Translations under genes and position numbers: made by a program
Assembly (NCBI GenBank): GCA_937916515.1
Contig: CALFSX010000277.1
Location: forward strand, 1 to 64,000
From: an uncultured Planctomycetaceae bacterium
GTDB taxonomy: Bacteria > Planctomycetota > Planctomycetia > Planctomycetales > Planctomycetaceae
Length of the DNA: 64,000 nt
Direction of reading: 5' to 3'
Notes under the pieces: generated by a model
What the model saw: the letters and a program-made list of their open reading frames with translations, nothing else
Databases searched by the model: none
What the model was told of the DNA's origin: nothing
Shown: positions 9,988-15,259 of the stretch, piece after piece
Position numbering within the stretch: the first letter of the stretch is position 1
Layout: each line of letters starts with the position of its first letter

Positions 9988-10199
9988 CGTAGCGACAACG
10001 GAGCGGTTTGGCGATTCGAGTGGTCCACGTCTTTTTGCGTGCCACGCCACTGGGGCACGGCCTCGTTAGAGTCTTATTTAAAATGATGCGTGCATGGTGC
10101 GCATGTTGATCGTAGCGACAACGGAGCGTCTCGGCGATTCGAGCGTTCCACGTCTTCCTGCGTGCCACGCCACTGGGTCAAGGGCGAAGCCCTTGTTAG
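9988..10199 (-). repeat. Family-1 dispersed repeats, tandem pair in reverse orientation
   Basis: Two units read on the minus strand. The complete one lies between GTTAG at 10195-10199 and GTTAG at 10065-10069 (130 bp). The second, 9988-10069, keeps the core but has lost its tail, and its palindrome has decayed (GGCACGGCCTC instead of AAGGGCGAAGCCC). The units share one CTAAC boundary. The pair ends directly before the flippase-like gene. Confidence 0.88.
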
Positions 10200-13513: not shown

Positions 13514-15259
13514 GTGAATCGTTCCAGTTTTGCCAGTGCTGTTACAATCATTCTTGTGACCGCGTTCAGCATTGCTTCGGCAAACGCTCAGCCCGTGGCC
13601 GATTTTACTCTTCCCAATCATCGTGGTGCGGAATGGTCGTTAAGCGATGTGGCTGGCGACAAACTGGTGGTGATTGCGTTTTTGGGCACTGAGTGTCCGT
13701 TGGCGAAACTGTACGGACCGCGTTTGACAGAGCTGCAGCAGGAATATTCTGACAAAGGCGTTGTGTTTGTTGGAGTCAATTCCAACACGCAGGACAGCCT
13801 GGCGGAAATTACCGGCTATGTCACCAAACTGAAAATCGGGTTTCCCATGCTGAAGGACGCAGGCAATCGAGTTGCCGATTTGTTGGCGGCGGAAAGAACT
13901 CCCGAAGTTTTTCTGTTGGACGGCCAGCGAAACATTCGTTACCGCGGCCGCATTGATGATCAATATCTGGTGGGCCTTTCTCGCGACCAAGTGAAACGTC
14001 GGGATTTAGCGATTGCAATCGACGAAGTGCTGGCCAATGCAACAGTTTCTGTTCCCAAAACGGAGCCCATTGGCTGTCATATTGGGCGAGTGCGCAACAT
14101 GGAGCCTCATGGGGAAATAACGTACTCAAACCAGATTGCACGCATCTTCAATAACCATTGCGTTGAGTGTCATCGTGCGGGCGAAGTTGCTCCGTTTGAG
14201 ATGACCAGCTACGAAGATATCGTCGGTTGGGAAGACACCATTCTGGAAGTGATTGCCGATAACCGAATGCCACCATGGTTTGCGAATCCGCATCATGGCA
14301 GCTTCAAAAATGATGCTCGTCTTAGCGACGACGAAAAAACGTTAATTCGCACGTGGGTGAAAAACGGCATGCCGCAGGGTGACGCCGCGGAACTGCCGGA
14401 TCCGCCGCAATTTGTGAAGGGCTGGCGGATGCCGGAACCGGATCAGGTGATCAAAATTCGAGACACTGCGTTTAACATTCCGGCCGAAGGAGTTGTTGAT
14501 TATCAGTATTTTGCCGTCGATCCCCAGTGGGACGAAGACAAATACGTTGTTGCCGCAGAAGCTAGACCAGACAACGTGGCGGTGGTTCACCATATCATCG
14601 CGTATGTGATTGCTCCCGGAACCGACGGTAGTGAAGGTCAGGATCGACGCATGCTGGTTGGTTATGCTCCGGGTGCAATTCCTCACGTTCTTGACGACGG
14701 CATGGCCATGCATGTTCCCGCCGGAAGCACGTTGATTTTCGAAATGCACTATACGCCGAACGGCACAGAGCAAACCGACCTTAGCTATATCGGCCTGAAG
14801 TTTACGGATAAGAAAAACGTCACCACATTGCTGCACGTAGACGCGGCGATTAACACCAAGTTTGAAATTCCACCTCAGGCTGAACATCATCTGGTGACGG
14901 CAACACATCGGATTCCGCGAGATCAATTGTTGCTGGACATGACTCCACACATGCATCTGCGAGGCAAGTCGTTCCGCTACGAAGCCGTGTTTCCGGATGG
15001 CACGGAAGAAGTGTTATTGGATGTTCCCAACTATGACTTCAATTGGCAGTTAAGTTACCTACTGTCGGAACCTCGGTTGTTACCGAAAGGTACCGTCATC
15101 AAATGCACGGCAGGCTACGACAACTCGGTAAGGAACCTGGTGAACCCCAACCCAAACGAAGCCGTTCATTGGGGCGACCAGAGCTGGGAAGAAATGATGC
15201 TCGGCTTCTTCAACGTGGTGGACGCGAAGGTTGACGCAAAACAGTCATCGTTCAAATAG
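13514..15259 (+). CDS. Redoxin - cytochrome c - copper type II monooxygenase-like fusion
   Basis: An exported 581-residue protein with GTG start and signal peptide (cleavage near ASANA). Residues ~30-180 are a peroxiredoxin/thioredoxin-like redoxin with GTECPLAKLYG, a single active-site cysteine. Around residue 216 a c-type heme site CVECH follows (NNHCVECHRAGEVAPF), then RMPPWF typical of planctomycete cytochromes. From ~300 on it resembles peptidylglycine alpha-hydroxylating monooxygenase: VVHHIIAY (~359), EMHYTP (~414), HMHLRG (~480) and a late methionine in EMMLGF, which fit the two copper sites. It could couple a heme to a periplasmic copper oxygenase; the substrate is unknown. It is monocistronic. 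Confidence 0.85.
   Translation: MNRSSFASAVTIILVTAFSIASANAQPVADFTLPNHRGAEWSLSDVAGDKLVVIAFLGTECPLAKLYGPRLTELQQEYSDKGVVFVGVNSNTQDSLAEITGYVTKLKIGFPMLKDAGNRVADLLAAERTPEVFLLDGQRNIRYRGRIDDQYLVGLSRDQVKRRDLAIAIDEVLANATVSVPKTEPIGCHIGRVRNMEPHGEITYSNQIARIFNNHCVECHRAGEVAPFEMTSYEDIVGWEDTILEVIADNRMPPWFANPHHGSFKNDARLSDDEKTLIRTWVKNGMPQGDAAELPDPPQFVKGWRMPEPDQVIKIRDTAFNIPAEGVVDYQYFAVDPQWDEDKYVVAAEARPDNVAVVHHIIAYVIAPGTDGSEGQDRRMLVGYAPGAIPHVLDDGMAMHVPAGSTLIFEMHYTPNGTEQTDLSYIGLKFTDKKNVTTLLHVDAAINTKFEIPPQAEHHLVTATHRIPRDQLLLDMTPHMHLRGKSFRYEAVFPDGTEEVLLDVPNYDFNWQLSYLLSEPRLLPKGTVIKCTAGYDNSVRNLVNPNPNEAVHWGDQSWEEMMLGFFNVVDAKVDAKQSSFK

Follow-up and report, generated by a model that had tools for sequence, protein, structure and literature searches.

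A planctomycete protein fusing redoxin, cytochrome c-like and PHM-type dicopper domains, predicted to be an exported monooxygenase with a built-in electron donor

The open reading frame at positions 13514-15259 (+) of the stretch analysed here (the window, 64,000 nucleotides of a contig from an uncultured Planctomycetaceae bacterium) encodes a single exported polypeptide in which a redoxin, a mono-heme cytochrome c-like domain and a PHM-type core are fused. We think it rather probable that the product works as a PHM/DBH-type dicopper monooxygenase, exported to the periplasm or the cell surface, that carries its own electron donor. The first-pass annotation, made from the letters alone, had read the same three domains (redoxin, cytochrome c and copper monooxygenase), and independent fold prediction and profile comparison bore this reading out. 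Because 91 homologues at other loci keep the same motifs, the motif set is not due to chance. The layout of the gene is given below, with invariance as counts in an alignment of 92 homologues.

13514-15259, + strand: coding sequence for the 581-aa fusion, starting at a GTG; homologues occur in other loci
13514-13588, + strand: signal peptide, aa 1-25, Sec-type, ending in ANA before QP as judged by eye; low pLDDT at aa 1-21
13589-14098, + strand: redoxin/thioredoxin-like domain, aa 26-195, from Pfam and structural matches to 3u5r (Z 24.8) and 2cvb (Z 24.6)
13694-13696, + strand: C61, sole Cys of the CxxC site (GTEC), 92/92
14075-14077, + strand: C188 in IGC, second invariant Cys of the redoxin, 92/92
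14111-14413, + strand: mono-heme cytochrome c-like domain, aa ~200-300, from Pfam matches below cut-off and fold comparison
14159-14173, + strand: CVECH covalent heme-attachment motif, aa 216-220, CxxCH in 92/92
14267-14269, + strand: M252 in MPPW, probable axial heme ligand (role inferred), 92/92
14426-15235, + strand: PHM/DBH-type dicopper core, aa ~305-574, from fold and profile comparison
14588-14593, + strand: H359-H360, CuH ligands (PHM H107/H108), from invariance and register with PHM
14747-14749, + strand: H412, third CuH ligand (PHM H172), from invariance and register with PHM
14948-14956, + strand: H479-M480-H481, with H479 and H481 as CuM ligands (PHM H242/H244), from invariance and register with PHM
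15194-15196, + strand: M561, CuM ligand (PHM M314), from invariance and register with PHM

The alignment comprised the window protein, four paralogues from its own genome, 80 loci taken as the best 80 of 559 relatives in a scan of genome contigs, and seven further loci; two of its rows (L037 and L095) are identical and one (L074) is cut by a contig end. Among those best 80 relatives, all with a named phylum belong to Planctomycetota.

A sequence search of the PDB with the window protein matched nothing beyond the redoxin part. AlphaFold2, given the window protein together with 79 homologues, returned a model with pLDDT 90.9 and pTM 0.86, and a pTM this high for a three-domain chain suggests that the domains are held in a defined mutual arrangement. 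Structural comparison of this model by Foldseek and VIA-align picked out two separate blocks, aa 23-195 and aa 309-574.

The second block has the two-lobed core of PHM (1phm and 1sdw), over 245-248 residues at 2.8-2.9 A and Z ~21 with all six copper ligands in register; for 1phm the values are Z 21.2, 245 residues and 2.8 A. It also superposes on DBH (4zel_A, Z 22.0, 267 residues, 3.3 A; Foldseek E 7e-15). A profile built from 30 diverse copper cores and searched against the PDB gave 16 matches, 14 of them PHM or DBH (E 1.2e-8 to 1.3e-6) and the other two unrelated proteins (E 0.86 and 1.5). In the profile alignments the HH pair, the later H(Y), the HxH motif and the Met of EM each coincide with their PHM counterparts. 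Superposition and register together indirectly suggest that the ligands would lie near one another in the model, as the first-pass annotation's reading requires. Pfam models for copper monooxygenases gave no match at E<=1 in the window protein itself; PF03712 is above cut-off in 2 paralogues of the same genome, and among 80 homologues it matches at E<=0.01 in 30, with PF01082 matching in 2.

The earlier assignment of a PHM-type dicopper core, which named VVHHI, an HMH motif and a late Met, is thus confirmed in every residue: VVHHI supplies H359 and H360, HMH supplies H479 and H481, and the late Met is M561. The third CuH ligand, H412, was not among the residues then listed. H359, H360 and H412 are present in 92/92 rows, and H479, H481 and M561 in 91/91 rows that reach those positions; all six are also invariant across the 30 diverse cores and in 38/38 cytochrome c-PHM rows of a second locus set, which shares part of its genes with the first. 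We take H242, H244 and M314 of PHM, to which H479, H481 and M561 align, to be the CuM ligands, M314 appearing also in the title of a mutant structure. For the three CuH ligands, the PHM numbering is that used in passages of PMC6123673. The label 'oxidase' in the first-pass annotation is better replaced by 'monooxygenase-like'.

The proposed heme site CVECH was found at aa 216-220, with C216, C219 and H220 each kept in 92/92 homologues. It is followed by an equally invariant M252 (92/92), absent from the earlier description, which we infer to be the probable axial ligand; heme motif and Met are likewise present in 38/38 rows of the second set. Pfam heme-binding and cytochrome models match aa 207-283 of the window protein, all below their cut-offs. 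Folded alone, the middle domain reached a pLDDT of 88.5 and gave zero Foldseek matches at E<=0.001. VIA-align returned three entries, all c-type cytochrome chains and all weak, the best being PccH (4rlr, Z 7.0, 75 residues, 2.2 A), and this weak structural match is suggestive of a c-type cytochrome fold. Proteins of the ResB and CcsA types, which assemble cytochromes c, are encoded in the same genome, and attachment of heme is therefore possible.

At the N-terminus, the best Pfam family is AhpC-TSA (E 9.2e-19, aa 26-143). The block aa 23-195 superposes on thioredoxin-like 3u5r with Z 24.8 over 171 residues at 1.9 A, and the likeness to 3u5r (Sinorhizobium), 2cvb (Thermus) and 2ywi (Geobacillus) takes in the whole domain, late GC included, at Z 24-25 and 30-33% identity. 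Those thioredoxin-like relatives that were compared at this site keep CxxC, whereas the first Cys of that motif is replaced in the fusions: Gly occupies position 58 in 89 of the 92 homologues, Thr, Ser and Asp occur there in one each, and Cys in none, so the active site of thioredoxin and ResA is absent from the set. The three stand-alone redoxins of the same genome (L006-L008) have the site intact, as CNKC, CNHC and CNSC, and share C188 with the fused ones. The earlier description of a 'single active-site Cys' is accordingly right for the CxxC site (C61 in GTECP) and wrong for the domain overall, C188 being just as invariant as C61 (92/92 each).

Two other roles for the redoxin were weighed. 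The copper core could be a peroxygenase or leak peroxide, which the redoxin would then destroy with C61 as peroxidatic and C188 as resolving Cys, leaving the heme only to drain or supply single electrons. We regard this as unlikely: the peroxidatic motif of peroxiredoxins is TxxC, which the near-constant Gly at position 58 removes, and many members with a missing or degraded redoxin keep heme and copper. What speaks for it is the pair of invariant redoxin Cys without CxxC, the AhpC-TSA family assignment and the mention, in a passage of PMC6123673, that one of the requirements of PHM can be bypassed by H2O2. Alternatively, the redoxin might act as a helper in the manner of ResA, keeping CVECH reduced for heme attachment or assisting copper loading. 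The ResB-type assembly protein in the genome would fit such a role, ResA structures superpose on the domain at Z 17-18, and ResA is its best NCBIfam match, at 39.9 bits, far under the cut-off of 170. We nevertheless consider it improbable, as the first Cys of CxxC, the usual nucleophile, is gone in 92/92 homologues and many members mature their heme domain without a fused redoxin.

For the monooxygenase with a built-in donor that we favour, the redoxin (C61 and C188, no CxxC) would serve as an accessory module for thiol or peroxide chemistry, which in some members is lost, degraded or encoded by a neighbouring gene. Both redoxin Cys are intact in 24/28 fused rows of the second locus set, and the remaining four rows all lie within tandem triads (L101, L102). 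At loci where the cytochrome c-PHM gene is unfused, a separate redoxin gene, which likewise shows the single-Cys site and the late GC, adjoins or overlaps it in 4/10 cases (L112:6437-8700, L113:7137-9562, L115:6861-9352 and L126:6195-8338). Since fused, degraded and neighbouring-gene forms all occur, the redoxin appears to be linked in function but dispensable, while heme and copper cannot be parted as readily. The triads are tandem arrays of the fusion gene, found in two genomes that belong to a single genus (L101:85-5486, - strand; L102:6755-12333, + strand). Each holds one copy with an intact redoxin and two with degraded redoxin Cys, with heme and copper ligands intact, and their products perhaps form a heteromer.

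The word 'unusual', which the first-pass annotation had used of the protein, does not hold in the sense of a singular oddity. The fusion is one of five copper cores in its own genome (the window copy and four paralogues) and belongs to a large planctomycete family. With a PHM-only profile, the core was found in 57/61 Planctomycetaceae genomes at 1 to 6 copies each, and across the phylum the same kind of profile gave 35 cores in 19/59 genomes. Among the 30 loci listed for these 35 cores, a heme CxxCH domain lies in the same open reading frame as the PHM core at 28/30, and a redoxin lies in the same frame at 20/30 and in an adjacent one at 2/30. One PHM core (L149, in genome G003) stands without a heme domain behind an out-of-frame redoxin remnant, perhaps through deletion or an assembly fault. 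A distant PHM-like core (L153:1483-3159, - strand, E 5e-10) has CX4CH instead of CxxCH upstream and is possibly an independent pairing of heme and PHM. A count of 185/199 genomes was rejected as a measure of the spread of the fusion, as the profile behind it also picks up lone redoxins and cytochromes. PF03712 had no match in 14 control genomes; PF01082 matched no genome at all and is hence uninformative on spread. A plasmid search returned redoxin matches and one weak match to the copper part, in Nonomuraea. Some cytochrome c-PHM proteins extend further at the C-terminus, with a TPR region in L114:6814-8781, L115:6872-9352 and L121:6293-8497 and EF-hand matches in its place in L002, L003 and L112.

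The genes around the window copy (at 10094, 11459, 12857, 15711, 16834 and 17410) were sought in the flanks of 92 loci, where three of them matched at one locus each; with no neighbours conserved across these flanks, the gene looks monocistronic. In a quick tree, which omits the truncated L074 and places L004 and L005 unsurely on long branches, the window copy groups with copies from Fuerstiella, Rubripirellula, Rhodopirellula and Blastopirellula. Part of this clade (L011, L014, L026, L028 and L074) has a histidine kinase gene 26-144 nt upstream, and L014, L026 and L028 have a conserved membrane protein gene 73-109 nt downstream; the window locus has neither at those places. Sulfatase, DUF1501 and PQQ-like clusters recur in the flanks at scattered distances and orientations and were taken, without a control, as background. 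The absence of an operon partner or substrate clue at the window copy, together with several copies per genome, could point to a surface protein that is no enzyme at all but uses an old PHM fold to sense copper or redox state, or to bind copper. We hold this to be very unlikely, given that both copper sites, the soft CuM Met included, and the heme are exactly conserved, which catalysis needs and which exceeds the demands of copper binding.

A separate clade of 17 rows (SH-aLRT 98) has a same-strand gene for an MMPL/HAE3-type exporter directly downstream in 16/16 testable rows, and such a gene follows in 0/63 rows outside the clade that have at least 1 kb downstream. The 16 are a paralogue from the window's own genome (L003/L098, G000:C80) and 15 further loci. 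The exporters score best against HAE3 (TIGR00921), followed by ActII-type MMPL transporters and by HpnN, with no score reaching its cut-off; these matches hint at a hydrophobic cargo. Members of this clade probably have a hydrophobic substrate or product, which the partner exporter would handle. The window copy falls outside, and the link bears on its sister branch rather than on the window copy.

Both the fold and the enzyme class of the core are known; what is new is the permanent heme c donor together with the redoxin. Compared with PHM, identity is 16-17%, a cytochrome c and a redoxin are added, and the core holds only one Cys (C531) and so lacks the PHM disulfide set. No lyase partner of the kind found with PHM was seen. 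R240, N316 and Y318 of PHM, which we take to be the residues that bind the peptide carboxylate, are replaced by T477, L563 and F565 in the window protein (across the 92 rows, Asn occurs at position 563 in 4 and Tyr at 565 in 29). Peptide amidation is unlikely because these carboxylate-gripping residues are not kept, and judged on these positions the substrate would be something other than the C-terminal glycyl peptide of PHM. In the three-domain copper nitrite reductases a tethered heme c domain donates electrons to the copper enzyme; the tethered heme c is common to both systems, but the copper fold and the reaction differ. DBH (4zel) has the same core and likewise an extra N-terminal domain, but this DOMON is a beta-sandwich where the fusion has a helical c-type cytochrome, and DBH has many disulfides and draws its electrons from ascorbate. 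According to passages of PMC4846438, the DOMON of DBH has the same fold as the heme domain in cellobiose dehydrogenase. We found no paper on a redoxin-cytochrome c-PHM fusion in the open-licence PMC literature, and prior mention elsewhere is possible.

How such a protein might work can be sketched from its animal counterparts, the textbook ascorbate-dependent enzymes PHM and DBH, which make amidated hormones and noradrenaline and in which the electron route to copper is still debated. In the passages of PMC4846438 that we draw on, electrons enter at CuH, while CuM is the site of O2 binding and hydroxylation, and each turnover takes two one-electron reductions, supplied in animals by ascorbate. 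Flow of electrons from heme to copper in the fusion is plausible and fits the near-constant pairing of the two (28/30 loci). The respiratory chain, through its pool of c-type cytochromes, would reduce the tethered heme; the heme would in turn reduce CuH and, through it, CuM, in single-electron steps, in place of ascorbate; and O2 bound at CuM would then hydroxylate the substrate. More tentatively, we propose that these proteins may form a whole class of bacterial PHM-type monooxygenases that need no ascorbate, being connected to the respiratory chain by their tethered heme c, and that have diversified into several paralogues per planctomycete genome. One orthologous branch might act in tandem with an MMPL/HAE3 exporter, the first oxygenating and the second exporting a lipid of the envelope or some other hydrophobic compound.

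A bacterial branch with its own heme donor would offer a self-contained and genetically simple system for the question of the electron route. Thousands of planctomycete genes that are at present labelled only 'redoxin' would also gain a role in oxygen activation, and the clade with its strict link to an exporter gives a direct handle on a substrate.
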